From Phorcus lineatus (taxonomy: Eukaryota > Mollusca > Gastropoda > Trochida > Trochidae), in contig OV121087.1 of NCBI GenBank assembly GCA_921293015.1, positions 12,908,501 through 12,972,500 of the forward strand: a stretch of DNA of 64,000 nucleotides. Direction: 5' to 3'. Shown one piece after another: positions 4,631 through 46,500 of this stretch (the stretch's first letter is position 1; each line of letters opens with the position of its first letter). The notes below the pieces were generated by a model. It saw nothing but the letters and a program-made list of their open reading frames with translations, searched no databases and had not been told where the DNA came from. Both the position numbers and the translations under genes were made by a program.

Positions 4631-4689
4631 ATTTTCTTTCTGTTCAATGGATTTGATGGATATAACCTGTGTGCAATATTCATTTGCAT

Positions 4690-8744: not shown

Positions 8745-9290
8745 AGGATTCCCAGGAAAAAACTTGCATCTACCCAACATCCTGAATTACTGGGTTATCT
8801 ATTGTCTGTTTCCTGGTACACATTGGCTTAGTTATTGACGTCGTTATGGCCAGGATGTTTGACCATATTTTACAGCGGTCCCAGTTGGCGTCTCGACTTT
8901 GTGCAGTCATTTTAGTGCCTCTTTAACCGGTCCTGACAAAAGTGTTGTTGTTGTGGTTGGCTGAGTAGATCTTCTTTGCGTGATGAACAAAGTGGTACAT
9001 ATACATGTAAGAAGCATTACTCACGGTGATTAACTTCAAAGTATACATTAGGAGTAAATCCTTATCAGTAGATGTTGCACTTTGAGGGTAACTGTTTTCA
9101 GTCACGTAATATCATTTATGCTTGACCAAGAATCGATTTTCAAACTCACGGTATTCTGAAGAGTTATACAGATGGAACTTTCTTTGATTTTGTCCTTTTC
9201 CGGACACATTGCAGGGGCTTAGTATTATTAATTCAACCGCTGACATTTTGTTTATCAGTGTAACAGATTATAGGAAGCGAGAGTGGTGTT
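8745..9290 (+). repeat. Module block Z, unit A
   Basis: It matches 20,935-21,440 and 32,950-33,475. Shared landmarks in order are 'catcctgaattact', 'ttcctggtaca', 'tgcgtgat', 'aacaaagt-gtac', 'agaagcatt', 'ttcaaagtatacattaggag', 'ttgttttcagtca' and 'atcagtgtaa'. Small frames inside it are not kept between copies. The spacing of the Z blocks (about 12.2 and 12.0 kb) defines the module length. Confidence 0.75.
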
Positions 9291-9439
9291 TACTAATATT
9301 CAAATAAATCTAAATAAACTCTTGAAATGGCTTATTAAGATGCACGTCAAATCTGTATAAATTCAATATGTTCCGACCAAAAGATTGTCTTTAAAAACAA
9401 CTGTAATCCATACAAAGTAGTCGAAAAGGCTTTATGAAA

Positions 9440-10140
9440 GAATGTGACGCTCTACATGGACACGTTTGCATCCAATCAGTTTAGAGTTTGAGAAGGTTGG
9501 CTTTATCAAAAATAAAGTTAAGAGCCCCTGCCGTTATCCTAATCCCTCCGATGATGATCTCCTAACCCTGTAAATTTCGTATGCTACACGAGAATACAAC
9601 TTTTCAATTCTTAAAGATCTTTATGAAGGAAGTCCAAGAACATTGCCTCCTGAAAAATGGAAAATAAAAAGACGATGAATGACTTTATTATCACATCGGT
9701 ATTTACACTTGCAGTAGCATAGAAATTACATTGTTACACCTGTTACATATAAAACCACTTTTCCTGCAGTCCCGTGTTCCCAATCGTAATTGGATTGATC
9801 TATTATTAAATAAGATTAGATTTTTACTCATGTTAGAACTAAGAACAATATAACCCGTGACGTATGAAAATATACAGTGAAACACTGCTTTTGTTACAAA
9901 AGGATTTTGTCTCTAAGGAAACTTCAAGACAACTTCGAAAGGTCAGATCTCATCATCAGATGAAATCAATATCTACAAACGCATTTCTAGTATTATAATG
10001 TCTTCATCACCAGGGTCATGGGAGACAGTGCCTGGATTTCTTGCACCCTCATCAGCCCTTTGCGATGCAAATCACAAAAAATATCAATAAGCTCTGTCAT
10101 ATATACTTACCTCAATGTGGTATGAAATATGGTTATCATA
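9440..10140 (+). repeat. Module block E0, unit A
   Basis: It matches unit B around 21,700-21,830 ('ttgaatgactttat', then 'tacactta-agcag') and 22,800-23,030 ('gacatcttcaagg', 'aggggtcgcttgggacag' against 'agggtcatgggagacag', then 'aaatcac'). Unit C lacks a clear counterpart. Non-coding as far as I can see. Confidence 0.5.
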
Positions 10141-10589
10141 ACTTTTTTTGCACATTTTTAAAAATGTACACATGATATTTAGGCACTATCAAAAATAGGA
10201 TGTATTTGCACTTAAGAATCTGTAAGAACGTTCTACCTGACGTTCAACTATTGGACTTTACTCTCTATGTTAATTTTCCGTTATCAAAATTTGACACTCA
10301 TTTCTGAACAATAAGACAAATACTTTATCAAACTGTCTTTTGGTAGGGCTAAAAAGTATTCAATTCGAAGTATACGATGACTTTAATATAATTCTCGTAT
10401 GTGCTATGGGTACAGTTATAAACTTAAATTAAATCAATATTATATTGATAATAATTTTTTTTAAACCAGATAAACCCCTTGCACAATATGTAATTGCATG
10501 CAATTCACGTCATAGCTTTGAAGTAAAACATATCAGTAAATTGATCAACCTTGTAAACAATATGCCACCAATAGCCAATAAGTGTTACA

Positions 10590-10870
10590 ATCATCGTGAG
10601 ACACAAGCGTGTTTATGGTGTTAGACCTGTAACTCACAAGCACAAAACAATCAAAGATAAACCGTACGTGTATAATTATCTGAAATAGATATTCTCCACA
10701 GGATTTACCAGACAAATATGTTAATCAGAACATTTCCCCTGTCGGAGATATGTGTCTATTATGGATGTATTCTGTCGTTAGCTGCAGCCTTTTCAGCTTT
10801 TACTTGATAAAGAAAATAGGGGAATTACAATTATTGCTGTATTCTTTTATTAAAGTTATAAAGTTTATAT
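10590..10870 (+). promoter_or_regulatory. Conserved block E1, unit A (possible regulatory element)
   Basis: One of the best-conserved blocks, shared with 23,610-23,880 and 35,340-35,600. Landmarks are 'gaacatttcccctg', 'ggatgtattctgtcgtt', 'agctg' and 'ataaagaaaa'. No frame stays open across the three copies. Conservation above the surrounding DNA suggests function or recent exchange; calling it regulatory is inference. Confidence 0.45.
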
Positions 10871-11229
10871 ATTCCTAAAAGTAACATCAGTATGTGGTAC
10901 CGTTTGCTAAATTATTATACAATAATTCATGATTTCATTTGATTGATAAAGATGCAGTCACACCTCCGGAATTCAACACTGACTAAAATATAATGTAAAT
11001 CAAAACGGTTTATTGTTATTGTTGAAAATCTATTTCATAACGATAACAACAAACTTTAATATCAAGCTTTAACACTGTATTTTGCAAATCATAACATCTG
11101 AGGATAGTTAGGATAATTAACATCCTCTGTTGTACATATTTGATGTTATCTACTGATTGTCTCGCAAAAAGTACGAAAGAACAGCAAAAAACACATAAAA
11201 AGAAATAACATTAGAATAAACAAACATAA

Positions 11230-11500
11230 CAGTTTATATGACATATCACTTTACATAACAATTTACAGGACAGTTTCTTAATTTATCAGTAAAAGGAGAA
11301 GGCTCTTCCGGTATGCATACTAATCTAAATGAGATGTTCCCGTATAGATTATATCAACATGACATTTAACGATGTACTCCTGACCGACTCGCATCAAATG
11401 TTCCTGACCTAGGTAATCAACCTCGGCCTAATAATGGGTTCAATGTATTTGCGTTCTAAATGGATTTCAAAGACAAATTTCATTTGTATTCAGAAACGTA
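11230..11500 (+). repeat. Module block F, unit A, left half
   Basis: It matches 24,360-24,600 and 36,700-36,990 ('acagtttatatgac', 'cctgacctag', 'ggttcaatgta', 'aaagacaaatttcatt', 'gagaaacgtat'). The block breaks at 'aaacgta' where the 2.74-kb element is inserted and resumes at 14,246. Confidence 0.7.
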
Positions 11501-11557
11501 TAGGGCCTGTAAGTAGGTCACGAGAACATGCGTGACATCTTACTTCCGGGGAATTTG

Positions 11558-11843
11558 CTAAACTGGTTCCAAATTTTGCGCCTTTGCGCTGTCATTTACT
11601 ATGGCGTTTTCCATCGTGTACTGGGAAGAATATGTGGCCGGATCGAAGAAGTTGGCCAGGAGGAGCGAAGCGTGTGTTGATTGAAGTTCTTCTAGGGTCA
11701 AACAGTTTCTGTTTGATCCTGAGGAGAATGTTGTGTTGGCCCAAGTGCAAGCCAGCATAAGAGACAAGTGCTACAAAAAGTAAGTTCGATAAATTCAGTT
11801 GTGTCGGGTAAAGATACGCGGAGTCTGGATTAAAGATACGCAC
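11558..11843 (-). pseudogene. Unclassified open frames inside the ISL2EU-like element
   Basis: Two overlapping minus-strand frames (11,558-11,767 and 11,592-11,843) lie just inside the left end. The first contains 'LTLEELQSTHASLLLANFF' followed by 'DPATYSSQYTMENAI', which looks protein-like rather than random. It could be part of the element's transposase or an exon carried by it. I do not recognise the family. Neither frame has start or splice evidence. Confidence 0.3.
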
Positions 11844-12436
11844 TTGTAGTCGATGTATGGGAGTTAAGTCTTCATTTGAATTATTTTATTTCGTAATTTT
11901 GAAAATATTATATGTATCAAAATGGTAAAATAAGAATGATGATTATGAGCATGAAACACTAAAACTGAGAAATTTAGCAAAGTTTACAACACTCCTAACA
12001 AATAGGTAGTTATGTTTTGAACAGATTAAAATATTATAAAAATAATTAAATAGGGTACACTATCTAAGGTTCATGGAAAGTCTGCCTTCGTAAGTTTTGC
12101 GTACAATTGATGAGCTTTAGAAATATGGGGGTAGTCATCCTAGTGTTCAGTGTCCCTGAGACAAAAATTTTATCTGGCGTTTCTACATTGATCTTATCAA
12201 TAAAACCTCAAGCTTTAACCACAACATGAGATTTTTAGATTTCTTACATGTTGTGTGAACAATATGACTGTATGTCTTAGAGCTACATGTACAGAGTAAT
12301 TTTATCTATTTCAAAGAAGTATGATATTAATAATCAGGACCTGTACGTAGGTTATGTCATCTTCTGATGACTTTTGTGTGTGTGATGATATTATATGATA
12401 ATCAGCTATGAATTGATGAATAATGTTAACTTTCAG

Positions 12437-12545
12437 GGACATGGCTGCATGAATCTGGTCTTCAAGCAGCCTCACTAGACGACATAGTCAATGATGTGTT
12501 GTTGGAGGTCAAGTGCCCCCTATATTGCGCGGGATATCCCAGTAA
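12437..12545 (+). pseudogene. YqaJ-type nuclease exon fragment
   Basis: After a good acceptor ('aactttcag') the frame reads 'TWLHESGLQAASLDDIVND' and then 'VLLEVKCPLYC'. This fits the core of the YqaJ/lambda-exonuclease family: an 'ASPDG'-like turn, here 'ASLDD', followed by the catalytic 'LEVKCP' with its E and K. In the family these acidic and lysine residues bind metal and cut DNA. The frame then runs into low-complexity AT-rich sequence and stops. The N- and C-terminal parts of the domain are not visible. It supports the ISL2EU assignment of the host element. Confidence 0.6.
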
Positions 12546-14245
12546 AACACGAAAAGGAAATAAACTTTGTTTGTGTGCGATTTTATTTTTATTAAACTCT
12601 ATTTGAAAAACAGTGGGATTTGTGTTGTTTGTAGTATTTTGATCATAGTCACACTCCCCTTTTTCTTATGTGTTTATTGTATTGTGTAAGTAATAAGGAT
12701 ATATTCTTGGATGTTATAATCCTTGAATTGATTTGAAAGGAGATTTGTAGGAGTGGATGGTAGTACATGTAAGTCGGCAAGAGCAGTTCAAGGTTACACC
12801 TTATTAATACTCTCCCATTGAAGATATCACTGTTTAATAAATCTACATTGTTATTACACATTGTTTGATAACATCGCATACCGAACAATTGATGTGACAG
12901 AGACATGACATCATACGTCACAATGTTAGCGGCGCAGCTGCAATGGTCATGTCAGTGATTTTCTTGCAATTTTATTGATGTAAATTTTTAAAGAATACAA
13001 TAAATGATAAATTACCCAACTCAGTCCCCTTTAAAACATTTTTATGAAACTCCTGATAGGAATCGGTATCTAACTCGCTTTAGCTCGTTAAATACCAAAC
13101 CACATGCTTGTTTCATGAAAGTGTTATTAAACAGGATGTCGTTTAGTATTATTATTTATTATGTAATTAATTATTATTATATTAATTTTAAGGATAGGCA
13201 CTTGAATGCTGAACTCTGAAGTCAATATTGTAGATCTGGTGACTCTGTGGTCCATTTTAGGACGTTTTTTACCATGACAAAAGAAAATATTTTCACTTTT
13301 TTATCAGGACACAGTATTTGAATGCTGAAATTACTGTGTACAGACACATTGATCAGTATGGTTCAGTTATAATGGATATTATACACACTGATCAAGCAAT
13401 TGATTACTTCTTATAAAGTTTAAATTGAAATGGGTTTGCTTTATGCATTTAACAAATCCTGTTGAGCTTGAGACAATGCATATATTGTGTAATGATTGGA
13501 TGAAAAATGTGTAATTAATTGGTTGTTTTTCCCATTAAAGTTTCATTTTACTTCATAAATGAATTAAACAAACTTCAAACATTTCAGCCATATAAAATCA
13601 AATTTAAAGAGCATAATAGTTTATAAGAGCATCTCTTCATTTCTCACAGATTTTTTAATTGTTTAATATAATAATTTATTTTTGTGATTTATATTTGAAA
13701 AATTAAACTATCAATTAAATCTAAAAGAGGACACTTCTCAGCCCCAGTTGTGTAATGTCTACTTTGCTTCAACAATATTTCACAAAACATACAGGAAATC
13801 ATTTCAACGGAGAGACGTTAAGTTATAACAGTTACAACAACAACATTGTTTAGATCGTAGATGGTGATGGAAATATGTGTACTAGAACAGTTTCATATAT
13901 CCCGCCAATACAATTCACGAAAAATGAATGTTCATACCAGTTTAACATACGCCTTATTGGCATTTTTTTTCGTACCTTCAAGATCAACTCCCTTTTTCCG
14001 TTGACGCAAGTTACAAGGAAATCGAAAAAAACCGCAAGAATGTTTAATACTTGAATGATTACACCCGAAAGCAAAACAATAAACCATATCGTATTTTAAA
14101 GAAGTCACCACAGACTAGGACTTGCATCATGTAACTGTACAGTTACGTGGTTACTTAGCGCAGCCGCGCTTCAAACGTGATTCAGTTTAGGTATTCCCCG
14201 GAAGTCAAAGGTGAAGGTCGTTCGAAACGAGACTTGCAGGCCCTA

Positions 14246-14440
14246 TTGTGAGACTTCAAATTGATCACAATGACGGATGAAAAATGAATTATGATCAAAG
14301 CGGATTACAATATAGAATATATATCAACCACTATGCTTAATAATTGAATGCACTTATCGTCCTTACATTAATAGGTTACAAAACCCAACAATTCTTTCAA
14401 GAGTTATTTTATTTCTTTTTCAGTCTCAGCTATCTTGTAT
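14246..14440 (+). repeat. Module block F, unit A, right half
   Basis: It resumes the block F alignment after the inserted element: 'ttgatcacaatgacggatga', 'atgatcaaa', 'aatatatatcaacca-tatgctta' and 'cttatcgtcctta', all matched at 24,610-24,800 and 37,005-37,180. Confidence 0.7.
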
Positions 14441-14639
14441 AAATTTAAAATTGCAATGTTTCTGTACTTGCTGCAGGTGAAGGAATTTATGATAATGTAA
14501 TTTTACATGTAACTATGCAAAAGAAAGCATATGTTATATTTCATTAAAACAGGCATTTAACATTCACTGTGTTTCCTCGATCCAAATTAAACATTAAAGC
14601 ATGATTCTGTAACATTCAGTTGATGTCTGAGCATTTAAT

Positions 14640-14880
14640 TCTTTCTTGATTCACTTTGGTTGCAAGTTTCTATCGGCCATGTGATATTTGTATGGCTAGC
14701 TGTATGATCTATTCTTTGATGAAGTTGTGAGTTGACATAGATTAGCTGCTTCATGTACACGTGTGCCCATCGAACACATGACCCGATAACTGACCTGTAT
14801 GGCACATCTGCTGCATGGGGACGAGACCAATTCGTTGTCATCACGTGACTGGTCAATTAGACCCTGCAGGCTAAATAGTG
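14640..14880 (+). promoter_or_regulatory. Conserved block X, unit A, with E-box
   Basis: It matches 25,000-25,230 and 37,690-37,950. Shared landmarks are 'tttctatcgg', 'gatatttg-at-actagc', 'aactgacctgtatgg', 'gagaccaa' and 'cacgtgactggtcaa'. The palindrome CACGTG (14,842-14,847) is kept in all three units (25,182 and 37,894). CACGTG is the canonical E-box bound by bHLH-zip factors. A regulatory role is inference from conservation. Confidence 0.5.
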
Positions 14881-16589
14881 AAGTTGTCTGAGTCGGATTT
14901 ATATCAATTTCAATTTACTTGTGAATAAAGCCTTTTTTCGCATCAGTACATCAACATTGCTTATTTTCAAAGGTCACTGATAACTACATTTGAAGACTTA
15001 ATCAGTTGCCAGGTATATATACAACGGGATGAGCAGTTATCTAAACACATTCATTTAAATATATATCAATTAAACCAAACCCTTTGTATTTGAAAATCAT
15101 AAAGAAAATAAATCAAGTAAATCGTGTGAATGAACTGTTCAACAACAACAAACAAATATGTATATGTTGTGTGTGTATCAGTTTCATTAAAAAGACGTAA
15201 TTAGTCATTGATATCATAGAATATTAAGCTGTAAGTGATAAGTGTATGCTTAGCATACTTAGCGAATATATGTCTATACCTTAACGTAGACTTCATATTT
15301 GCAATGGACATCAAATCATTTGTAAAACATTTTTTTTCTGATACATTTCTCATGAATAGAAGCATCTAAAAAAACCTCTAACAATACATCAACACAGTGC
15401 AATAGTCGCGATGAGATGGTATCGATTTATTTTGTTAACTTAAACTTGATATCCTTTTTTTTAAATAATGAGAAAGCAAAAGGATCACAGTAACGAGTGC
15501 ATAAAATCAAGAGAGTAATGTTTGTCCCGAAATCTATATAAGTCGACTTTATTTGAAGTTATGTATGTAAAAGCAATCTAAAGACAAATAAATCTGAGGA
15601 AGTAGATATTTAGTGTTATGTTAATATCCAGAGAGCCGGACAAAGCCATGAAATCATTAATTAAGATATTAAAATGCTGAGCTTTTCGCCAAGAAAGCTT
15701 ATATATTGCTGTTACATATTTCACAAATACATTTTGATATTCATCACACATGGTTTTGCTTTGATGTGAACCTACATGTAAATGTCGTATATGATTATTT
15801 AAGAAATAGCTTTCATAAAGTGTTACACAGCTGAAATATTGCCAAGACAGCGCTAAACAGTAACTCAATCACTTCATAAAGTGTTTGTTTACTGGCTTAT
15901 CAACTATTTGAGGAGTGCAATTTAAACTGGTGTAATTGCTTGACTTGTCGATGGCATTTGACATGAATACTTTGCGCATGTGATTTTTCAAACGAAACAA
16001 AAGGTGAACGATCAGCTATGTATGTTTAAAGAAAACGTTCTTCTTTTGATTAAGCTCGCTTTTGGCAATGATGATAACTGACTGAATTGAATCATAGCAA
16101 TTTGATATGCCAATTCATATGGAGTTTTGTCACAATTAGGACTGCGTTGACTGATCAACCATTTGTCAGCACGTAATCATCTGATGGATGGATACAAATG
16201 TATACTTCATATTAAAAATTTACAATCATCAACCTCTTGGATATGCATAATTTCAAGACTACAATAGTTATTATCCAAGATGTATATGCACACTGCATCG
16301 TCTTTTGTCTTTGATATATCATCTACTTGAAGCAGAACTGTATGTCCTTAGCAAACTCTGCATCCCCATTTCATTGTATTTGATGTTGATAATTACGTAT
16401 TTGAAGACATATTTTAAGGTCAGCTAACATATCAAAATGAAGAGAAATGGACACGACCGAACTTGCCATACAACTTTATATATAACTTAACTCTATGCAT
16501 GCTAATTGACTTTTCGTTGTAAATATATAATCACAACATTAGCCCTTAGCTCACCACTGTCATGAGTTGTTGGTACTTCGCTTGATCTA
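14881..16589. other. Module DNA between blocks X and Y, no gene seen
   Basis: The first part (to about 15,060) still aligns with 37,945-38,140 ('gcatcagt-catc', 'aggtcactgataa', 'gagcagttatctaa-cacattcattta'). The rest is AT-rich. A minus-strand frame at 15,578-15,868 (96 codons) has no recognised domain and is not kept in the other units. Confidence 0.45.
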
Positions 16590-16716
16590 GCACTTTGTGA
16601 CTCTGAAAAGAACATCAAGAGATTGTCCAGTAGATCCCCCGGGATCCATTTGCTCTGGCCATGAGGGTTTTGGTGACATGTCGACCCATTTGTGCGTCCC
16701 AAAGTGACTAAAACAG

Positions 16717-16862
16717 GGATCTAGGACAATTCCCACCCGGACAATTCCCACCCAGACAATTCCCACCCGCCAATTGCCACCCGGACAATTACCACCTAGG
16801 ACAATTACCACCTAGGACAATTCCCACCCAGGACAATTGCCACCTAGGACAATTGCCACCGA
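16717..16862 (-). repeat. Minisatellite, 14-18 bp unit, about eight copies
   Basis: Repeated 'cctaggacaattgccac' with variants ('cccggacaattcccac', 'taggacaattacca'). It codes by chance for a G-N-W/G-I-V-rich peptide on the minus strand, which is not a protein. Tandem arrays near the ends are known from some MULE terminal repeats. Here it sits beyond the 3' end of the transposase fragment, so it likely belongs to the element. Confidence 0.9.
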
Positions 16863-17302
16863 AAATAAAAATAATAATGTTTATGAGATTTAACACACTT
16901 TATTGTCATGAATTCAACAATATAAATATGATATGTAATATCATGAAATATTTGTTTTAACACTAGCACTGGACACTAATGAATTTAATGCTAAAGCACT
17001 ACTTCTAAGAACTTCCAGATGGATGGATGACAGCAGGCCATGTTGGTTAGAAGACGACGATGCCATCCTTCTAGGTGATTGTTTGTTCGTGGAAGGCCGT
17101 CGTTGGTCCTCCGGTGTTGGTTCCATGATGGAATGGGGAAGAGAGGCAGGCGTCGCCCTCTCCTCTGTGGACGGCCGATGTAGGTGTCCTCAAAGTAATC
17201 TACTACTGGCTGGAGTTCTTCAGGCAGGTTCTCGGACAGGGTCTCAAATGCTGTTGCTACCTCGTCCTCCGGGATGAAGGCAAGGGCTGCGAAACAGATC
17301 CA
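16718..17302 (-). mobile_element. MULE transposon fragment inserted in block Y
   Basis: Units B and C read through 'aaatagatctaatcctgc', so these 585 bp are an insertion specific to unit A. On the plus strand it starts with the 'ggacaatt' minisatellite and ends within transposase coding sequence read from the minus strand. Only the C-terminal part of the transposase and its 3' flank remain, so it is a 5'-truncated piece. Flanks 'ggatct' and 'agatcc' may be remains of a target duplication, but this is weak. Confidence 0.75.
16991..17302 (-). pseudogene. MULE transposase, C-terminal fragment
   Basis: The frame contains 'YFEDTYIGRPQRRGRRLPLF', then 'IPSWNQHRRTNDGLPRTNN', 'HLEGWHRRLL' and 'HPSIWKFLEVV'. 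The succession YFEDTYIGR, W-N-x-H/Y, LPRTNN-x-x-EGWH and P-x-x-WKF is typical of the C-terminal part of MULE (Mutator-like) transposases in animals. The catalytic DDE region would lie upstream (above 17,302) and is missing, because the frame runs into block Y sequence there. The start codon at 17,311 lies in that flank and is not the real start. After WKFLEV the reading frame decays. Confidence 0.8.
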
Positions 17303-17440
17303 ATCCTGCATTTAGGACTCCATTCGGGAAGCTGTTAGTAATCAGACATTAACCTGATTAGATTGGATGTCTGGGAGGCTTTTCCTTAGAAAACTGGTGC
17401 TCGTGAGTTTGTCTCAGAATTTGAGCTGCAAGGAATAACA

Positions 17441-17989
17441 AAAGGATATGCATTAAATATTTTTGTTTAAAATGATGGTCCTATGCCTAACTAAAACGAA
17501 AAGTGAGTAGATAATTGTTTTTACAATTTAGATTTGTATTTGAAAGCTTGCACTTTCAAAGTCTCTTAAAAGCATGTTATTATGCTGACATTTTAAGATG
17601 TTGGTTTGTAAGTAAATGTATATTTCGCTGAGTAGGAAGCTCAACGTTAAACATTTTAAGAATCAAATTATCAGTAGTATTGTCTACTATTATAATTTGG
17701 TTCTTAACAATTGGCTGTTATAAGACGATAGTATCAGAGGGACGGAATGTAATTTATTTTTTGAAAATATTTCAAATTCTAAGTTGATTGTACTTATGTT
17801 AAATGAAATATTCGTTATGTCAACTTGAATAATATTAACTCTATAGAAGAGTGTTATACTCACACTTCATCAGTGAAGCCAATGCTTTACACATTTGACA
17901 ATAGGAAGTTGGCTTGAGCTATGTATAAAAAATCTTCGCTTTTCTTGTATTTAACGTCACAGGATCACATTATGAATTGCAATAAATGA
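17441..17989. other. Module DNA, no gene seen
   Basis: AT-rich sequence between blocks Y and W. It aligns loosely with unit B 27,115-27,530 ('tttgaaagcttgcactttcaaag' against 'tgaaaagcttacactttcaaag') and unit C 40,570-40,900. Confidence 0.45.
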
Positions 17990-18400
17990 ATACATTGAGC
18001 CCAGTATTAACACAAACTAAAGCTGATCAACAGGGTTCAGGTAAATGGAATAAAGTGTCCTTCGATTTGGTCGAGTCGGTCATTAGGTCAGTACTTCGAA
18101 TAAACGGACACATAACAATAATCTATCTATAAAACTATCTCCTCTGAGCTTATTTCATCTGTGTTTTTTAAATAAATGGCTCGAAATAAAATTTTGATAA
18201 TCTTTAGTTCTCAACTTGGCTCAAGACCGAAGCTGCGACGTCACAGTGATCTATTTAAATGCAAAGTGTCTTGGCAGTCTTGTGACATTTAACGGATCAA
18301 CTAAAATTGATTGCGTTGAGTGCCAAGTCCCGCCCATTCCATGACAGCGTCAGTCTAATCATATGACATGCTCACTGGGAAATGTACAATGTTCCTTTTG
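17990..18400 (+). repeat. Module block W, unit A
   Basis: It matches 27,530-27,860 and 40,915-41,290. Landmarks are 'ctgcgacgtcacagtgatc', 'aaatgcaaagtgtcttgg', 'tgtgacattta', 'atcaac', 'ttgattgc', 'gccaagtcccgcccattcc' and 'gacagcgtcagtc'. It contains the palindrome GACGTC, overlapping a CRE-like TGACGT/GACGTCA core on the 5' side. No shared frame. Confidence 0.7.
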
Positions 18401-19429
18401 AACATGCAAAATCATGTGTTTCCTTCGTTTGTACCAGTTATTAATTCTATTTTAAAATGAAATGTAAAACAGTAAGACATTGAGGAGAATATTTTTCCAG
18501 ATAATTAGATATTAAATTATTTTTTTCTAGATTGCAAAACAAAAGATAATATGCTCGAAGATCTTGAGTACTGCTGTGTAAGATCGGGGTATTATTAAGG
18601 AAACGGGTTCATTGATATAGTCAGAATTTTGAAGACATACGTACGTCAATAGTTCATTGCTTTTTCTTGCAGTTAATAATGTGTTTTCTACCATGTACAT
18701 AAATGATATTGAATACATATATGATCGATTCTCTCATTAAGAAACATATAGCAATAGGTTTGAAGATATATTGTAGGAACTTAAAATCGAAATTCAATAT
18801 TGACTTCAATTTTTTAGTTTTACAAATGATGTGTCATTAAGTACAATGTCCAATTACATTTTCCTTGATTCAACCTTTGACAAGGATAATAAATTTTATT
18901 TTCCAGTCAGACAATTACTTGCTTTACTTTGAAATTGATCCCTTAAAATGTATCTTGCGTCATAGAAAAGTTTTAAGAAGTCTTGAAATTGCTCTAATTG
19001 AAGCTGTTAGGCATCATATATCATATGAATGTATGTTTCCTAACTTTTAATTATACAATATTGCATGTTTATGTAAAAACAATGTTTCATAAATTCTCTT
19101 GTTCAATGTTAAATACCAATTATTTCAGTCATTTAGAAATTAGGTTTTATCAATTTCGGCTGAATAAGATTGCCCATGTGTGCAGCCTAGTAACATCTGT
19201 CAACATGGATGGTTTATATTTGCAAGCTGTCAATGCTAGGAATTCGTTAAAATATCTGATTCAATATGGAACAAACACACATGTCATTACTTAGTGCAGT
19301 AAGTAAGTTTTGACTTTTATTGATATTCAACAGAAAGAACATTGTACGAAAGTTGCTATACATAAAATAAACCATTCAAGGTAATTTTGAAATTTTTCTA
19401 TTAAAGTTATTGTTCTGGAGTTCAGATTT
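18401..19429. other. Module DNA, no gene seen
   Basis: AT-rich. Overlapping plus-strand frames at 18,865-19,050 and 18,998-19,294 have no recognised domain and no matching frame in units B or C. Confidence 0.4.
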
Positions 19430-19830
19430 TCTTTAGTTTATTAGAATGATAACCAAACTGTGATAAAACATTTGAATTCCAGTTCCGCTCCAATATTAAA
19501 ACATATCGTCAAAAACCAAATTAGAAACCGTAATGTGAATGCTATGTACGTGGTATTTATGGTTACTGATTAGTAATGTGTCATTGAGGCTAGTTGGCAA
19601 ACAGACTCTCATTAGAAGTAACACAGAAACCAGACACAATCTATTCGACCTTCTTGGTAATGAATTGGCTGGACATAATTTGTTTCTTGATGAAGGTCAA
19701 AGAGGAATGGTATCCATGATGATTCTAAACGGTGGTTCGTTTATAAATACTTCAAATTCAAATTCAAATTACATTATTAATGTTGATTTTAGTATCTCAA
19801 AAAACTATTTTATGTAAAGGCCATTTTCAG
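19430..19830 (+). repeat. Module tail block T, unit A
   Basis: Counterpart of 4100-4630. In this copy a 92-codon plus-strand frame runs from 19,539 to 19,817, but the T0 copy is full of stops and indels in that frame. I therefore treat it as non-coding. Confidence 0.6.
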
Positions 19831-20269
19831 TCGGATTACATTTATTGCAGAATGAATAAATATGTGTAACTACTTTCATGCTCTAGATCTTAGTTATCTA
19901 ACTTTTAAAAATGTTTTGAAAACGTTGTTGTGTAAAAGTATCTATCGCTTACCTTTCAATCAACAATTATAAGATGTAAAGGATATGACAAAATCCTTCA
20001 TTTCACAATTTTAATTTTGAACAGGACATAAAGTTTCCATCTATCAGAATTATTCTAATGAAAACAATGTATAGGGTTACTCAGGATATCGTCAAATCAA
20101 CCGCAATGTTATAGTGAGAAGTATTTGTGGGGAGCAGTTATCAGGTCTTGATCAATATTTTGTTAACGTACACATAAAAAGTATGATAATGCACCAACGT
20201 TAATGATTTAATGGTCATAAAACATACCACATGTATATGATTGTTCTGCAAGAGGCTTACTAAACCTTT

Positions 20270-20274
20270 GACTT

Positions 20275-20308
<34 letters not shown>

Positions 20309-20313
20309 AAGTC
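20270..20313. repeat. (TA)n palindrome with 'gacttacaat' arms
   Basis: 'gacttacaat', then a TA run, then 'attgtaagtc': a perfect 44-nt self-complementary stretch. It can extrude as a cruciform. Expanded TA runs follow at once downstream. Confidence 0.9.
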
Positions 20314-20353
20314 ATATAAGTTGTATATATATATATGTAAAAGTTATATATAT

Positions 20354-20663
<310 letters not shown>

Positions 20664-24840: not shown

Positions 24841-24999
24841 TCTAAAACGAGTAAGTGTAAGTTATTCTTGTTGTACATGCTTTTGTTAATGATATTTCCT
24901 TTAAACTTTATCCTTATGCCACACATAAGTAAAGCAGGTGCCAGGATATTCAGTTGATATTTGAGAGACGAATCAGAAGAAGATTGTAATGATTAATTC

Positions 25000-35383: not shown

Positions 35384-35600
35384 AAGATATCTGCAAGTTA
35401 ATATTATCTTATATGATTAACAGAAACTCTCTACAAGTTTATCAGATAAGTATGTTTATAAGAACATTTTCCCTGGTGGAGATTATAGATGTATTCTGTC
35501 GTTTGCTGTCAGCTACATAGCTTTCCCTTTATAAAGAAAAGTAAAGCACCATGATAAATGTTTAATTCCACGATTAAGGTTAAAATGTTTAATGTTTTTT
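35340..35600 (+). promoter_or_regulatory. Conserved block E1, unit C (possible regulatory element)
   Basis: Counterpart of 10,590-10,870 and 23,610-23,880. It keeps 'tagcgtgtttctgatgtctg', 'ataagaacattttccctg', 'agatgtattctgtcgttt' and 'agctttccctttataaagaaaa', followed by 'caccatgataaat' as in unit B. Confidence 0.45.
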
Positions 35601-36699
35601 AAATGAGGATAAAGAGGATTAGGATCGAATCACGATTAATGATTTAATTTTCATAATTTCTTTGACTGATACAGATGTCATCTAACCTTAAAAAAATATT
35701 GACCAGAAAATAATGTTCATCAAAACCGTTAATGTGTATGTTGAAAACACAATAATTCATAACGAAAACAACAACATGTTTAAAGAAAAAATATATCAAA
35801 TAATAACAACAACTGGGACAGTATAGTATGGATAACACTTCATGAAAAACACTCCTGGTAATTAGCATTCTCAAACGATAGCAAAGAACAGAAAACAAAC
35901 ACTTGTTCACTAATATACTATTTTCAAAGACAGCAATCACAATTTTCTCATTAGTTTTTTTTTCATTAACTGTCAATGAGAAATGTTTTTTAATACTTTT
36001 CTGATAAACCAAACTACTTTAGGGTTGTTTTGTGCCTCTGTTGATGTATAATAACAAACTATATAAAATATGGTACAGCGATTTTTTTTACAAAATCCTT
36101 TGCTGTTAAACATCGATAGAGGCACGAAATATGTGAATCCTTGCATATAATTAAGATATTTACATTTACACAATATAACATAGTTGAATGACAATTCAGA
36201 AATCTATCAAATAAAACGGCAGAAGATTTAATTTCGTTTCTTCAAAATTGACGCAAAGTTCGTCTTAACTCGCATCCGCATTTTTGAAATAATCCTCGAC
36301 ATTCAAAATGGTTACCATTTCTGAAAAGATACGATTTATTCTATAGAACTTTTTAGATATAAAACTCTGAAGTTTTCGGTGAAGGTAAAAATTAATCTTT
36401 GATGACAATACTATTATTTGGTTGTCGACGTTGTAATGAAGATAATGAGATACTTACATTTCTTATTTTTGCAAATAAACCACAATTACGCATAGTTGTC
36501 ATAACTGAACGAGCTGTTGCGTCAATGTCCTCTGTGAGGTTGTAACATCACAAAGTTTTAATGCACGAGCTATTATTGCAAATTTTTTCTACATTCATCG
36601 CGAAATGGTTGCAGGTTTGAGAGAGCTCTTGTCCAATCTGAATCGCCGAATGACATGTACAAAACTTATTATGTATTTATAAAGAATAATTTAACAAGA
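35601..36699. other. Module DNA, no gene supported
   Basis: Two minus-strand frames (35,644-36,012, 122 codons; 35,973-36,194) are rich in F, Y, I and C from AT-rich DNA, without a domain. Unit B shows no matching frame. Confidence 0.4.
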
Positions 36700-37230
36700 C
36701 AGTTTATATGACGCAACAGTAAACCAATTAATTAATATAATAATCTCTAAATTTGTCAATTATTAGAAACGGGCTAGAACAATGTACAAATTCTTATACT
36801 GATTATAGCAAAATGACACTTCCCAATGTATTCTTATTCCTGTTCAGTATTATACTAAATTAATTCTCATCAAAGGTTCTCTTGACACCTGACCTAGCTA
36901 CTCTACCTCACACTGTATAAATAGGTTCAATATAAATTGCTTTCTCGATTAAATATAAAGACTGATTGTATTTATGAGAAACGTATTGTGCGGCTTGTCA
37001 TATTCATCACAATGACGAATGAATTTAGATGATAGAAATTATGATCAAATCAACTTTGGAGGATGTCAACCACTATGTTTAGCAATTGTATGTACTTATC
37101 GTCCTAAAACTAATTACCTCTATGACAAATTTTCAAACCAAACATTTATCATTGTTTCAAGAGTTGTTCTAACCCTTTCCAATTCCCAAGTCTAATGCCT
37201 TATATCATAATCATTTTCTATCAGCCAATG
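36700..37230 (+). repeat. Module block F, unit C
   Basis: Like unit B it reads straight through 'agaaacgtattgtg' at 36,979-36,992, confirming the empty site of the unit A transposon. Confidence 0.7.
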
Positions 37231-37282
37231 TAGGTCTATCTAGTGTAGAAGTGGGGTGTACAAATCCTCGAAGTCTGACGTA

Positions 37283-37500
37283 GAGAACTGTTCGTCATGT
37301 AGTGTGGTTTTAGTGTATTGGTACACTGAATTTCAACGCAATACCACCCCTGGTTCTACCGATGCTCGTAGGTTTCGTGGTTATGATTAGCCACAATGGT
37401 GTTGCAAGCTTTTCCCCTGCAAAAACACTAGCAGCCGTGATATACGTGAAATACTCTTGAAACTGGCGTTAAATCTCAATTCAACTCACCTCACTAGTGT
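37283..37500 (+). repeat. SINE-like dispersed repeat, copy 2
   Basis: It contains 'acactgaatttcaacgc', 'aataccacccctggttc', 'gctcgtaggttt', 'agccacaatggtgttgc', 'cgtgatatacgtgaaatact' and the tail 'ggcgttaaatctcaattcaac'. It is not at the place of copy 1 within the module, so the insertions are independent. A 125-codon frame at 37,457-37,834 starts in its tail and is not a gene. Confidence 0.7.
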
Positions 37501-37689
37501 ATGGTTGACAATCCTCTTGTTGCTGTACTTGCTTTGGCTGAAGGAATTTATGAAAATGCATTTGTGCAAGCAAATATGCAACAATATCATATGTTCTATT
37601 TCCAAATATTTCCTTTGTTACCTCGATCCAAATAAACACAAATTAAAGCAGGTATCTGTAACATTTGAGCAAAGAATTAGACGAATTCT

Positions 37690-37950
37690 GTCTCGATTGA
37701 CTCTCTTGAGGATATCAAATTTCTATCAGTCAGGTGATATTTGCATAACTAGCGATGTGAATGTTTTCTCTGATCAAGTTGTGAGTGGACATAAATTAAC
37801 TAATTTTCGGGCACTGTGGCCATCGAACACATGACCTGATAACTGACCTGTATGGTCCATCTGCTGCATGATGAAGAGACCAAGTAGTTTCACCACGTGA
37901 CCGGTCAATCAGATCATTCAGGCTGAATAGTACTGTTGTCTGGGTCGGAT
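37690..37950 (+). promoter_or_regulatory. Conserved block X, unit C, with E-box
   Basis: Counterpart of 14,640-14,880: 'ccatcgaacacatgac' and 'gataactgacctgtatgg' match unit A almost perfectly. CACGTG lies at 37,894-37,899. The trailing 'gttgtctg-gtcggatt' also matches unit A. Confidence 0.5.
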
Positions 37951-40254
37951 TACTTCTTAAGCCTTTTCAGAGTCGGATTTATGTTTCTTTTTGCGTGAGC
38001 CTTTATACGGATCAGTGCATCCATATTTCACAACATTATTTCATGAGGTCACTGATAAATGCAGCTAAACACTGCATCAATTGCAAGTGATGTATCCAAG
38101 AGGATTAGCAGTTATCTAAGCACATTCATTTAAAACACAAAACTATTAAGACAAAAACTGTGTATTTGAAATACCTACTATTGATTAGGTATGACAAGTA
38201 TATCGTGTGGATGACATTTTTGTTGTTCAAGACAACATTCATCTATTTACTATGATACGCTAATGAAGATTTCATCTACAAAAGAAACATAACTGTCTGC
38301 ACATCAAAAGTCACACACAAAATTGTGTTGACACTACATAAGAATAACAATGTGAATTTATCAGAAACATCAAAATTTTAGTGCGTAATTTAAAAATGCA
38401 GCGGAAGATGAAAACATGATAAAGTTAACACTGAGTAGTAACAACATCATGTCTTATTAAAAAGCTATTGGTCAACAAAGTTGAACATCTGTTTAGAACT
38501 AGAAGCTTATTTCCGAAAATTCTGCTGTAGCAACGTTATATTAACCACCTGAGGCAAAACCTACATTAGTGGCCAAAAAGATCAAAAGATTCAGTGTTAC
38601 TTATTCTATAAATTCACGTACCATTTGTTTTTATCTCATACGGTTTGGTTTTGACACGAACATAAATAACGTATAAGATTATATGCATTAATACGTCTCA
38701 CATGTTTATTCTCAAATGGCAATGAAATGGAATCGTTTAAAAGTCATATTTATACAAAAATAAAAACGAAATCACACATCCAATTTAAATGCATACTAGT
38801 TTTCTAACTAATCATAACCTATCAAATCCTGACTGTTTTTGGACTGCTTTAAATATGTAATTCAAATTATGTCCGGTTTTTGATCACGAATTGTGATCAA
38901 ATGCCTTCCTGTTGTCACTATAAAAAAATTAGCTTTCAATGATACTTTTCTGCAACAGTTAGTTTTTGTTCAAATGTCAGCATTGAGATAGGTTGACATA
39001 TATACCACTATGCACATCTGTGCAATATTAACGCATTACCTATATTTTGGTGTACAGTTTTTACAATTATTTTTCATATCGCAATATATCGCACCCACTT
39101 ATTTCATATCAAACTGATTCAGAATTATTCTAATTCGTTAACGTGTAAGGCGAATTGTTTTGGTGTGCAAGAATATATGTTTGGCTGTATTGCAAACGAT
39201 AGCAGACAGTATAAATGCCATCGAAATTTACTTACAAACTTTATGTTGTTTCCAATACCCTTTTAATAAATCTGAAGGCATTTTAACAATTGTGATGTAT
39301 TTCCAGTCTTGATTCTCATTGGTCGAGACAGTCAAGGCCGTCTGACACCGCTTGGTCAGATCAAGAGAAGTAGCGAGGTAAGAGGGAAAAGTTTTGAGCT
39401 GATTTCAATGAGATTATTGCAAAATATGGAGTCTATTTTGCATTATATTGCGATATGAAATTTTGTGTAATACTCAACCCTACCACTATGTACCATAGAC
39501 TTTTCATATTCTGATGATAATATCTATTGTTATATAGATTTTTAGTCATCTCTTTATGACATGCCATGACCCTCAACAAATATCATCTGATTTAACTTAA
39601 TTCACTAAAATTTCCGCTGTTGTATGACTGAATGTCACAAGCAACAATTATGACACAGAAAATGAGACGTTGCGTGAGGAATGTTAAAAGTGATTAATTG
39701 AAGGCAAGAACAAAACGGGTTGACACTTCAAAGCAAAGAGCATTTCTTGTCATAAAAAATACCGTGTTATGGACTTAGAAAATAAAAAAAATATTTTAAT
39801 AACCAAAATTTAAAACTTTGAGACAAAATATTAAAAGATAATCCAACCATTATATCAAATTTAGCGTTGGCTGAAACTTTTATTTTACATTATGATTATC
39901 GCCGGACAGAAAATATTGTACATTTGAGAACATTATGAGTATATTCCCTAAAAAAATGTCATAAAAGTGACTTGAACTTTCAAAGTTCACATACAACATG
40001 TTAAGTGATAAATTTTGTCTATTTGACATGCTATGGTGTATTTGATACGATATTTTTATATTAACATATGCCAACTGCAAACTTAAATACACTTTAATAC
40101 ACTATAATAATAATAATATTACATCAATTACAACCTGGATGCTTCCAAAAAAATTTCGGATCACCTAAAAATCCAATTTGAAACTCGTAAGCTAATGATG
40201 TAGCTTTAATATGATATTTCAAACTGATATTTTACAGCTAACCAACTCTGATGT
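37951..40254. other. Module DNA between blocks X and Y, no gene seen
   Basis: About 0.5-0.7 kb longer than in the other units. 'tgcaatattaacgca', 'catatcgcaatatatcgcacc' (39,076) and 'ttatattgcgatatgaaat' (39,441) form a diverged inverted pair about 0.38 kb apart, which may bound a small inserted element. No gene is supported. Confidence 0.4.
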
Positions 40255-40570
40255 GTTGCTGGTACCTTGCCGAACACTTTGCCAGGTCTGGCGCTTGGTG
40301 ACCATGAAGAGGACATCAATAGACTGACCAGTAGATCCCCCGGGATCAATTAGCTGTGGACGTTAGGCGTCTCGTTACAAGTCGACCCATTTGTGCATCC
40401 CAGACTAGTTAAAATAGATCTAATCCTGCATTTAGGACGCCACTCAGAGAGCTGTTAGTAATCAGACATTAACCTGATAAGACTGGGCGTCTGAAAGGCT
40501 TTTTCTTCCGTGGGCTGGTGCTTGTGGTGAGTTTGTTTCAGCACTTGAGCGGCGAGGAATAACGAAAGGA
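40255..40570 (+). promoter_or_regulatory. Highly conserved block Y, unit C
   Basis: Nearly the same as unit B throughout: 'gccaggtctggcgcttggtg', GATCCC-CC-GGGATC at 40,334-40,347, 'atagatctaatcctgcattt', 'gagtttgtttcagcacttga'. It also shows the uninterrupted insertion site of the unit A MULE fragment. Confidence 0.5.
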
Positions 40571-40914
40571 TTTGGATTAAAATATTATAAAATGATCAGA
40601 TTAAGATTTGTTTTGCAATTAAGATTTGTTTCTGTAAAGCTTTCACTTTGAAAGATTATGTAATAGTAGTCGTAGTGTAGTAGTTGTTCTCCTCTTTGTT
40701 TGGTCAATGCCAACCTGATTAATCAATTATTATTAATGAGATATTTTAGACATAAATACCATTTACTAATTTACTAACACATTAGATGTCGATAATATAA
40801 GCATACTTGGATTTAAGTTGGCAGCTTTATTTTATGTATGTGGACACATACATGGACACATGTTGTAGTCATTCAAATACATAATTCCGGGTTTCCTTTC
40901 AATACCAACATCAA

Positions 40915-41290
40915 ACACAAGTTCAAATTAGTGCAAGTGGTTTCAGTTCAACAGAAATGGATTGCTGTATGATTTGGTCCTTGAGGGATTAATTGGATGC
41001 TGATTGTTCGAATAAATGAACAAGAAATTGTCATCTGTCTTCCTTAAGCCTTTACATCTGTATTACTAATATCAAAAGCCCCTTTAATAGTATTTTGATA
41101 ACCATTGTTTCCAAACTGACTTACAGACCGAAGGTATAAACGTCGCAGTGATCAACTGAAATGTAAAGTGTCTTGGCAGTGTCCTGTGACATTTAAATTG
41201 ATCAACACTTATTGATTGCTGTGTGTATCAAATCCCGTCCATCTCATGATAGCGTCAGTCATATAAGTATCCCATAGTCGCTGGATGATA
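40915..41290 (+). repeat. Module block W, unit C
   Basis: It matches unit A best: 'cgtcgcagtgatcaa', 'aaagtgtcttggcagtgtcc', 'tgtgacattta', 'gatagcgtcagtca'. No frame is shared. Confidence 0.7.
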
Positions 41291-41339
41291 ACGGTGATAA
41301 GATCATTTCGTGCTGTCAAGAACTCGTGACACTGTTTTA

Positions 41340-42230
41340 TACATTTTGTACTGGTGAAAATCACATCTGTAGACTAATAGCGGCATTTACACACTCGTGC
41401 AGGAACCAAAATCACGTCCATAAACTGTTGTCTTCACAAATCGATATTAAAATTTAGAATTTGTGAACTTGAATATTCGATCAAAGATTGGTCACAAAGC
41501 AAATATGCTCAATTTATTTTATAAAACGGTGTACTTATAAAACTTAAATATGTTTTAAAAAACTATTGCCTCAGCACAAAGGTAAAGTAACTTCTTTATG
41601 ATATTTTGTCAATTCTCGTTCAATTGCCTAGTCAAGAAATCTGCAACACTGAAAGCCGTCGGTATTTCTATGCGATCAAAGGTCATCTGTCGTATCTGAC
41701 CCACAGGTACAAGACAAATCCTTTTTCATATCGAATGTTAGTGAACAGATCTAAAGCTCAACTTCAAAAGAATATCACCAATCGCATATCTACATGTAAT
41801 CATATGAAAGTATGTTCAAGAACATTAATACTCTCTGTGGGTTACGATTTTGAGCTTGTCCCTCTGGTCATTTCAAATGATGGATTTCAAAGTTTTACAA
41901 AATTGCAAAGGAGGGGTTGTGCCATGTTATCATCAACTAACCTTTGACGTAATGTGAAATTCAATTATGACAATTAATCAGCTCGAAACACGCAAATGAC
42001 AATCATGGTGTACAGATTGTGTGACGAAAGTCAGTAATTTTGAGATGAAAATTACACGTTGCGGAGTTTGGCACAGTATTTGACTAGAACACAATCAATG
42101 AATTGATGTTCTACAATATCAGAAAACAGCTCCTATGATGTAATTTATATTCTCTGACTTCTTCATGTGAACTTTATAAAATCTAAGGGATATTTTACTT
42201 GATTACCCCCCAAGAAAAAGAATTTCAATA
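41340..42230 (+). repeat. Module block V, unit C
   Basis: Counterpart of 28,680-29,650. A 113-codon plus frame (41,606-41,947) lies within it, but the aligned sequence in unit B is interrupted by several stops, so no gene is called. Confidence 0.65.
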
Positions 42231-42839
42231 GAACACTATTTTTAATAATTATGTCATTCTGATCCCACAGTTTAATCAATTCTTTGTTTGCTGATCCTAG
42301 GAAACGTATGACTAATTCCATCATGGCAAAGCATGATTTGGATTCTGAGGTTTAAGGCTTATAATTTACTTTAAATCTATTCAGGATAGAAATCACTTTA
42401 ATCATTGGCAGTGATGACTTCACATGTAATCTATGTTATACTGTAGAGCCGTTATTCTGCATTAAAAGGTGTATTAAGAAAAGTATCAACTGCGTTTTCG
42501 ACAAAATATCAACCCAAATTTAACATGACCGGCCGCTTCCATTGCTTGAGAATTTCAAAACATCTTCAGGTGTTAATAATGAATGATGTATTATAATTTC
42601 TAAGTTGTTAAATCTAATTTTAGGATAATTCAACAGGATTTGCAAAAATTTTACAAAGTTATCCTAAAACATATATTGTAAGGTAAAGCCTTTGATAATT
42701 ACAATTCATTTAATCAAAAATAAAAATGATATATTATTTTCATATTAAATTTCATATACAAATTACAAAAAGATGAAAAATATATCATGGTGTTTAAAAA
42801 GTTTCATGTTTCCTAATATAAACATCATGATTTCAAACA

Positions 42840-43265
42840 AACAATTCATTTTTTAAACTGTGAATCAGGTTTATCCATTCTCATTCCAAACAGATGATCA
42901 TTTAATTAAAGAGTTTTAAACGATGGCTTGAATCAGGAAAATCAATTAAAAAACAAAAGATTGAGAGCTTCACACAACTGATGACTTTTTGCAATGAAGG
43001 ATTACAGAGAACAATCCATCATTGTGTCGACACACTTTAAGCAGACACTTGAATCTTCTCTTCGGTACGAACTAGTCTTATATCATTGAGTGTGATGCGT
43101 CTTCGGTGAGAATTATGTTTTCATAAATTAATCTAACACCACCTCTATCATGTCTTATATTAATGAAAATGTAATTATTCTGTGTTCGTGACAGCTATAA
43201 CTAAATGCCAGTTTCTTACAAAAGAATGCCACTAGACGGACAATTTATCAAACCTCGACACCAAC
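42840..43265 (+). repeat. Module block U, unit C
   Basis: Counterpart of 30,020-30,440. The later part, 'gaaggattacagagaacaat' with 'ccatcattgtgtcgac', also resembles 50,402-50,446. Confidence 0.55.
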
Positions 43266-43289
43266 ATGCTGACCAATAAGTCCCATGTG

Positions 43290-43935
43290 ATCAGTTTTGT
43301 TGTCTTCAGAGGGTCAGCTGGGGACCTTATAGTAATCAGACATAATAAAATTAGGTTCAGTGGTTTTCATGTCTGTTCGTCTGGCAGGTGTAACTGTTTA
43401 TTTTGTTTAATCTTGTGGGATTAATATGAATACAAGGTGTCCATACCGAACCTGATGGCGTTCGTTAACGTATCTAAACCAAGCCATTTTCATATATTTA
43501 TTGAGTGTCCTTGACAGACGTTTTCCGGTCAAACTAGAACATGTGTCGCCATTTAAAATATAACGAACAGTATCAGTCAAAGTTCATTATGTCAAGTGGT
43601 AACACTGAGGGGGAAATGGAGAGCTGAATGATACATTATAATAAATGGTCAAGGAAACACCATATGTCCCCTGCTGTTCATGAAGCGGTGTTCTGTCATC
43701 ATACGAAGTCTTCCTTGATTAATATCTTCATTAGCTGTCACCTTTAGGTTTCCGGTCGTGTCTCAGGTCAATAGTACATTGTGACATCACGCTGATCGAT
43801 TTAAATGCAGTGGGTCTAAGCAATGTTCAATACTTGACAGCGTTCATGTGACAATCGAAATAATCAGCCAAAACTGGTTGCATTGAAAATCAAAACCAGT
43901 CAATGTGCCTGTGAAAGAACTAAAGCATTCGCAAC
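43290..43935 (+). repeat. Internal partial module copy (Y end to W)
   Basis: 43,300-43,400 resembles the right end of block Y ('gtagtaatcagacat', 'ggcaggtgt' after a TCTGTTCGTCTGG-like stretch). 43,590-43,935 is a full block W most like the left-edge remnant at 590-960. It interrupts the U-to-S order seen in unit B. It is either a remnant of a deleted fourth unit or an internal duplication. Confidence 0.5.
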
Positions 43936-46500
43936 CAAATTAGTGTGACAGAATGATTTGAAAGGAATAATTGTTACTGAAGGCTACTGACCACTTGGTT
44001 AAGTTTTTCAATGGTTGACGATTTTCTTTGTTTATTCATCTGAGTAAGAACATGTGTAGTAAGTAGGGTTTATTACCCACATGGTTAATCATTAGCGGTG
44101 ACATATTTTCAATATGAGCACATGTTCATATATCTTTTTTACCTAGCAACAATTGTATCAGCGCAAGTTACCGTATTTTAATTTGTCGTCTGTAAAACCA
44201 TTGTTCGTGATGTCACGTTAGCGTGGCGTCACAAGGGAAAGTAGCCGTTTACTGAAAACTTACATGCGTTTGAAATGGAATAGAATCGGTAATAAAAAAT
44301 ATTACCCAAAGAGGGTGATATGACTATTACAAAACTCCTGCTCTTGCTTGGTTATAACAAAATTCACACTCGTTTCGTAAAAGTCACTTCCTCGGGTAAA
44401 AATCTCTATGTATGTAACATGTAACTGGTATAATAATAACATTTAATAGAGATTTGGTTAGTGCCTGATAACTTCAAATTAACTATCAAAAGATCTGCGT
44501 CTGTTAGAATGATTCATCGTATATCAAATCGTGCTTAAATAACAAAGGAGTAAAAGGGACACGCAATGAAATTGAAATAAACAGAATACAAAATGAAGTG
44601 TGAAATATCACATATCTTGTGTTTTAATTGATTGATGAAATCGTTGATGATCAATCATGGTCATGGATTGCTGTCAAGAGAGTAATAAATCCATTTTGAG
44701 GTGAGCTTTTCATTTTTTCTTCCTGATGAGCGATTACTTCCAAGACCCAAGAGAGTCTTTAAAATTGAAATAATTGAAAACAAATTTGTCATTTGTGGAA
44801 AAAAGGAACAGATTTGCATCTGAAAATAGATTGATGAAGTGTGGTGATATCTGGAATGAACTGTCACTGTGAACACTTTCAAAACCACAGCAAGCATATA
44901 CAAGTGTGATCTAAACAATCTAAAGCATATCCAATTTGTGAAATGTTGATAGTGACAAAGACAAATCGTGATAATCTACATACTGAGAACAGTGGTTTAT
45001 TTCAATGAGGCGATCACCTTGAAACCTTTATTAAGTATGCACCTGTCGCCATCAATTTTAACATGTTAAAATCGGAATCAAAATTTTGCTAACCCCGGGT
45101 GTAACATTGCACGAATCACCAAATGCTTATTTAAAGATCCGTACCTCTTCTTTTATTAATTATCCTTTTTCCTCAGGTATTAATGTGTACGCCACACGTT
45201 TAACGTATATGAATATTATGAACAACGAAATATAAATTTAATCAAATTAAATAAATAAATCTATTTTTGTTTGTTTAAGTATTCGACACTTTTACATTTG
45301 CACTTTTTATGATGTTTGAGAATTCGTTTATTTTTGGATGAATAAACCACTCACTTGAATGGAATTATCTTTTTTTTGGCATATAAATGTATCAACACTT
45401 TAAAAAAGACAATTAAACTTGTATTTCTAATTTTGGTCAGTCCACCGAATTTTGCATTATCTATTGACATCCCCGTTTGTATATTGTCAGCAGTTACAAT
45501 CATTTGAATACTAGTTTTACATATTTGCCAATCGAAAAATAGATATTGACAGACTGTAATCCTCGTGATATGAAACAGGAGAATATTTTATTTCCTATAG
45601 TAACATGTTGCAACTTACCATTAATCTCAAACGTTTGACAACTTTTCAATGTTGAATCTAATTAAACCGACAAAATCTGAATAGCAGGTACTGTGTGGAA
45701 TCCACTACCACAAGAAATGCCAACTTTTATGTAAATGTTTAAAGATATCTGTTCAAACAAACATTGATAAGTCGGACACAGCTCCTTATTTGCATTCAAT
45801 GGAATATTCATCATGATGCTAGTAGTGTCAAAATTTAAAGAGAAATAAAAAATATATTCTCGTGGTGACAAACTTTATCTTTTACTTTTGACTAAACCAG
45901 CTTGAAACATATTTGTTGACAAAGTTGAAAGAAACAAAAAATAACATAAAAAAGTCCTAATTGTGGTAATTGTAGCTTTTAACATGCATTTGTTCGTGAG
46001 ACTGAAAGCTTAAAGGGTAAAACAGTGACAAGTGTGATTACTAAAAATATATTGTAAACGCTCAAAGCTAGGAAGGGTGTTTTAATGTATTCGATTAGAC
46101 TTAACACTTTATTCTGAACCCAAATGATACATGCACAATATCCACCCTACGTCTTACTTAAAGAGCACAATATGAGTCCCTGGGGGGTCTACACGAGTGG
46201 ACAAGCATAGACTGAGGGTTAATTCATCTCTGATGGTGGTCAGCTGGCCGTAAATGGTCACTCGACGTTCATCTGAAAACACAGAATGGAAGTGAGAATT
46301 ATCATTGAAGTAACTATCTGAGGTCCTTTCTCTGTAGTGATTCATCCATAAATCAGCTTTAAAGGAAATGTTTGCCAATCTGTAAAAGTGGAAATTGTTT
46401 AAGTTGTTTCAGGACCGTCATCCCGAGTCTTTCAGGTCATGTCGAGTTGTTAATCAGTAGTCGTTTACAAGTCTCATGAGACAAAATTTGCTCTCTGGTA
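43936..46500. other. Module end of unit C (block S), no gene seen
   Basis: It aligns in part with 30,990-32,390 of unit B. Several minus-strand frames of 69-85 codons (44,661, 45,662 and 46,154) have no recognised domains. Confidence 0.45.

Follow-up and report, generated by a model that had tools for sequence, protein, structure and literature searches.

A large, old tandem array of apparently non-coding blocks in the genome of the topshell Phorcus lineatus

What kind of locus repeats the same series of short blocks, in the same order, through large units that carry no recognisable gene, and why have those blocks outlasted the DNA between them? Here we address these questions for a tandem array in the thick topshell Phorcus lineatus, in which the same six blocks (Z, E, G, F, X and W) are found in each of three units (B, C and D) of a 64,000-nucleotide stretch of DNA, the window. 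We take the window to be positions 12908501-12972500 of chromosome 7, a chromosome of 52.04 Mb in a genome described as spanning 957.8 Mb in 78 scaffolds (PMC10444997, a paper that also names an RNA-seq run, ERR10377999). Coordinates are window positions, negative values lying upstream of the window start, and the sequence examined comprised the window, 100 kb on each side and a further 50 kb upstream (314 kb). The reading that we favour, with about even confidence, is that a non-coding region was duplicated locally long ago and that its slowly changing blocks, either regulatory elements or exons of non-coding RNA, have been kept by purifying selection.

Layout and extent of the array

The initial annotation had described ordered blocks of one orientation in three head-to-tail units, with Z repeating every 12.0-12.2 kb, and had proposed self-comparison as the check on their collinearity. 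BLAST of the window against itself bears this description out: all of the named blocks are collinear and in one orientation in unit B, which begins near 8.7 kb, unit C (near 20.95 kb) and unit D (near 32.9 kb), and the Z cores are spaced 12,160 bases apart from B to C and 12,047 bases apart from C to D. Block X is 78% identical between B and C and 81% identical between C and D, its copy in unit B being interrupted by an insert of ~570 bases. The array is confirmed as real and is bigger than first reported, with three extra Z copies upstream at about -35.0, -23.6 and -13.8 kb, a fourth X/W set (X at -3.3 kb, W at -2.1 kb), and blocks linked to the upstream Z units that extend to -47.6 kb. Across the 314 kb a Z profile recovered its six source copies and none besides, and a W profile recovered its four source copies as well as copies at 821 and 43776, one in inverted orientation near -109 kb, and a match at 53430 that is weak (E 0.014); weaker inverted matches to other parts of the array lie near -112 to -107 kb (E 6e-7 to 0.004). 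With collinear units of the same orientation at one locus, the array fits a tandem segmental duplication, the inverted piece near -109 kb being the exception, and with 65-81% identity between units in the main blocks (self-BLAST) the units are not near-identical or homogenised as in a macrosatellite.

A family of large, dead mobile elements was among the explanations first offered for these units, and blocks scattered at high copy number through the genome would have spoken against an array. We searched the genome (957,807,699 bases, 74 contigs) with blocks Z, X, E/G and F. All four matches to Z, all four to X and all six to E/G fell inside the array. The query 36786-38171, which contains a short interspersed nuclear element (SINE), initially drew 2491 candidates; five of its 43 matches were in the array and the other 38 on its SINE part. 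These counts are lower bounds, as two of the six known Z copies, those of units C and Q, escaped the Z search, and the upstream X escaped the X search. Apart from the SINE in unit D, then, no genome match to Z, X, E/G or F was found outside the array, within a sensitivity at which diverged copies could be missed. The SINE-like element itself (~240-265 bases, very common genome-wide), which lies beside or inside the units at 8255-8409, 37273-37494 and 50968-51198, is noise unrelated to the array. Transposon-like fragments do occur in the region (Tc1-like, Penelope-like, SINE and long interspersed nuclear element, labels that are our own reading of translations), as an origin from mobile elements might lead one to expect; however, the finding of the four searched sets of blocks at this locus only, within the sensitivity just given, the lack of any known element protein in the six frames of unit D and the lack of an inverted repeat at unit ends in the window self-BLAST make that origin very improbable.

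Conserved blocks and the DNA between them

To read the blocks as preserved islands requires that they differ from the intervening DNA in more than ease of detection. Interblock segments were aligned against shuffled controls, those of fewer than 60 or more than 3500 bases being left out. Between B and C all six tested segments proved homologous, at z 6.0-15.8, and one pair of them, 997 and 998 bases long, scored z 8.6; between C and D six of ten reached z>=3.8, the two largest scoring z 1.9, and between B and D two of five were homologous. In a simulation with 24 1-kb pairs, identities of 68-74% gave z values of 44-117, whereas 58% gave 12-23 and 50% about 0-13, and comparison of the observed interblock z with these values therefore indicates that the blocks have been preserved better than the intervening DNA. 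Plain identity, from one aligner, was 0.64 for interblock DNA, 0.62 for shuffled sequence and 0.77 for blocks. The C-D segment 27532-27733 is exceptional (z 19.2) and probably belongs to the X-W block. Since the B-C interblock DNA is still homologous yet far more diverged than the blocks, the islands are not merely a detection artefact, and the earlier picture of an old array that keeps defined islands holds. The blocks are less diverged than interblock DNA in comparisons between paralogous units, most clearly between B and C, which is one trait of an array of conserved non-coding elements, and indels and old gene conversion could have contributed to this contrast.

In this account a non-coding region underwent several head-to-tail duplications long ago, and the units have since diverged to the point where the DNA between blocks is barely alignable. 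Purifying selection may have preserved the blocks, which would then be cis-regulatory elements, possibly targeting the immunoglobulin (Ig)-domain gene downstream, or exons of a tandem non-coding RNA gene family. The slower change of the blocks suggests that they have a function, short of proof. The main rival, less probable in our judgement but a serious contender, is a functionless relic of old tandem segmental duplications decaying neutrally, in which blocks survived because mutation or indel rates were uneven or DNA was inserted between the blocks, through ancient gene conversion, or by chance. The two large C-D interblock segments without clear homology and the presence of other tandem arrays within the 314 kb fit such a relic; the identity of X between units, set against B-C interblock DNA that scores like ~50-58% identity, does not.

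A core within Z bears on the same choice from both sides. Of the nine block sets only Z shows a core that is significant, a 20-column window at 0.93 across its six copies (p 0.0005), and this near-invariance tells against neutral decay. The other eight sets, at p>=0.21 for 20 columns and with a lowest p of 0.04 for 40 columns, lack such a core, as a relic would; the nine sets are partly dependent, since W entered once with four copies and once with six, and X was represented by three of the four that exist. More than the core supports the kinship of the upstream and window Z groups, because the longer matches between them span ~230-310 bases at 68-69%, although the seeds used to find these matches favour such a core. 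A pattern written from the six cores had no further exact match in the genome, and with up to two mismatches it had 184, against 31 for a reversed control. Twelve of these near-core places were fetched, and in all 12 clear likeness to Z was confined to ~20-28 bases just around the core; eight of them represent one dispersed repeat family, whose likeness to the Z core may be chance or remote kinship.

A fuller version of the functional reading, which we offer only tentatively, is of a protein-free gastropod locus whose tandem copies, six or more in number, are maintained by selection as a cluster of non-coding RNA genes or as a regulatory domain in repeated form, in which the Z core would be the shared working part. 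If the blocks are functional, this would be a tandem family built of non-coding DNA, and comparison of the six paralogous Z copies would show, in one genome, which bases are constrained. If they are not, the array illustrates well for how long the relics of tandem duplication remain recognisable in a mollusc.

Tests for coding and RNA signals

The units had been described from the outset as non-coding, with no shared reading frame, and as far as the power of the tests reaches their non-coding character is borne out. A codon-substitution test gave p<0.05 for six of 156 aligned pieces from -150 to 64 kb, which is the chance rate; on simulated exons the same test detected 30/40 at 60 codons, 16/40 at 40 and 4/40 at 25, so that very short exons could escape. 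Three-base periodicity reached p<0.05 in two of 145 gap-free runs, below chance. The Pfam search of all six frames at E<=0.5 covered unit D and returned no match. Neither a Pfam search with nine open reading frames (ORFs) of the window nor the ORF lists revealed anything coding in the units, there was no match in the three plus-strand frames of locus L015, and ten hand-picked upstream ORFs gave one weak match under the cut-off (E 0.022).

These results bear directly on whether the array could be a tandem family of small-protein genes with short exons, living or dead. The weakness of the codon test for exons of 40 codons or fewer leaves room for such genes, as does a minus-strand reading (YHFVDHANK-like) that runs without a stop through the Z core of each of the six copies; this peptide was rejected as a candidate on a Z codon test of p 0.94. 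Together with that value, a pairwise codon test at chance, no excess of periodicity and the empty Pfam search of unit D make small-protein genes unlikely.

Searches for RNA were likewise negative. The window has no tRNA and no Rfam match at the gathering score; folding of the Z alignment gave no covarying pair, none of 21 pairs having changed on both sides; and among the 45 most stable places of a hairpin scan (-50 to 64 kb, judged by eye) none recurred at a matching position from unit to unit, as the hairpins of a microRNA cluster would. Conserved donor-like GTRAGT sites (5/11 on the plus strand and 1/16 on the minus, background 16-21%) were set aside because overlapping pairs count one site repeatedly. 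The lack of a transcript or structure signal in the Z folding, the hairpin scan and the donor-site count is a further point in favour of neutral decay.

The observed/expected ratio of cytosine-guanine (CpG) dinucleotides was 0.62-0.71 in four of the five arrays of the region and 0.85 in the fifth, against 0.81 in the other 182 windows. Low CpG in the arrays hints at transcription, because in invertebrates with mosaic methylation the methylation is often located in genes (PMC8549274); the age of the DNA is equally able to explain it. C-to-T change at CpG was 1.4 to 2.3 times that at other C in all five arrays, with CpG transversions also raised in four, and as a sign of something specific this bias does not single out the present array.

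Comparable systems, feature coordinates and neighbouring DNA

Local tandem segmental duplications of animals are alike in their large head-to-tail units at one locus, divergence with age and interruption by transposons, but the present unit yielded no gene, and its blocks are alignable far beyond the rest of it. The duplicated conserved non-coding elements beside vertebrate paralogues are likewise paralogous non-coding blocks whose order has long been kept, although the copies here are in tandem at one locus rather than beside paralogous genes, and their conservation is that between paralogous units. The macrosatellites DXZ4 and D4Z4 share kilobase-scale tandem units; in contrast, the copies here are few, old, unequal, non-homogenised and AT-rich. 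Tandem long non-coding RNA gene families would account for both the ordered non-coding blocks and the lower CpG; in this array transcription is putative, and the donor-like sites do not establish conserved splice signals. In the literature covered, which was partial, we found no account of such an array in P. lineatus or of non-coding tandem families in molluscs.

Table 1. Coordinates of the units, blocks and related copies in the window
Feature	Position	Strand	Remarks	Basis
Unit B	8745..20950	+	collinear with C and D in the self-BLAST; boundaries approximate	
Unit C	20951..32930	+	boundaries approximate	self-BLAST
Unit D	32931..46500	+	boundaries approximate; six frames without Pfam match at E<=0.5	self-BLAST
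Block Z, unit B	8768..9283	+	core at 8975	self-BLAST, Z alignment, Z profile
Block Z, unit C	21135..21420	+	core at 21135	self-BLAST, Z alignment, Z profile
Block Z, unit D	32963..33467	+	core at 33182	self-BLAST, Z alignment, Z profile
Block E, unit B	10607..11052	+		self-BLAST, genome search
Block E, unit C	23496..24305	+		self-BLAST, genome search
Block E, unit D	35204..35976	+		self-BLAST, genome search
Block G, unit B	14244..14372	+	short	self-BLAST, genome search
Block G, unit C	24398..24831	+		self-BLAST, genome search
Block G, unit D	36786..37218	+		self-BLAST, genome search
Block F, unit B	14457..15095	+		self-BLAST, genome search
Block F, unit C	24959..25209	+		self-BLAST, genome search
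Block F, unit D	37518..38171	+		self-BLAST, genome search
Block X, unit B	16575..17476	+	insert at about 16724-17291	self-BLAST, genome search
Block X, unit C	26793..27337	+	81% to D over 551 columns	self-BLAST, genome search
Block X, unit D	40245..40770	+		self-BLAST, genome search
Block W, unit B	18185..18373	+		self-BLAST, W profile
Block W, unit C	27734..27859	+		self-BLAST, W profile
Block W, unit D	41086..41260	+		self-BLAST, W profile
Second W-like copy, unit D	43776..43978	+	47.7 bits	W profile
W-like copy	821..967	+	~3 kb past W of upstream unit A; 35.6 bits	W profile
Remnant	4264..4387	+	matches 19592-19713	self-BLAST
Post-W blocks, unit C	28714..30155	+	match unit D 41358-42972	self-BLAST
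Post-W blocks, unit D	41358..42972	+	match unit C 28714-30155	self-BLAST
Last larger shared block, unit C	31563..31810	+	matches 45436-45687	self-BLAST
Last larger shared block, unit D	45436..45687	+	matches 31563-31810	self-BLAST

Separate tandem arrays with different units lie at -145 to -134, -101 to -71 and 120-137 kb. The first two (-145613 to -134310 and -101463 to -71600) are same-orientation arrays with units of ~5-8 kb and some longer spacings, in which the Z and W profiles found no match; the downstream one (119811-137032) looks non-coding and has units of ~5-6 kb, and no CpG ratio in the region is lower than its value of 0.62. No tandem chain was listed from 46 to 119 kb, the sole control, and a small one, for how frequent such arrays are.

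No host gene was found from -150 to 54 kb, a statement limited to long ORFs and a few Pfam queries. Downstream of the array, Pfam searches of the three plus-strand frames over 54.9-64 kb gave Ig-domain matches at 57452-57592 and 62548-62679 and weaker ones at 59211-59300 and 61688-61810, which probably belong to one plus-strand gene, its exons beginning at about 55-57 kb. An open frame at 54987-55370, without a Pfam match, is by our reading a possible membrane-anchored coiled-coil exon.

Two further repeats deserve mention. The segments 4688-5282 and 6944-7534 are arms (~590 bases, 94.6% identical) of an inverted repeat, perhaps a recent foldback or mobile element. A Tc1-like transposon fragment is present in two inverted copies that are 93-96% identical, one (-106740 to -105633) near the inverted W piece and the other (-8145 to -6778) inside upstream unit A.
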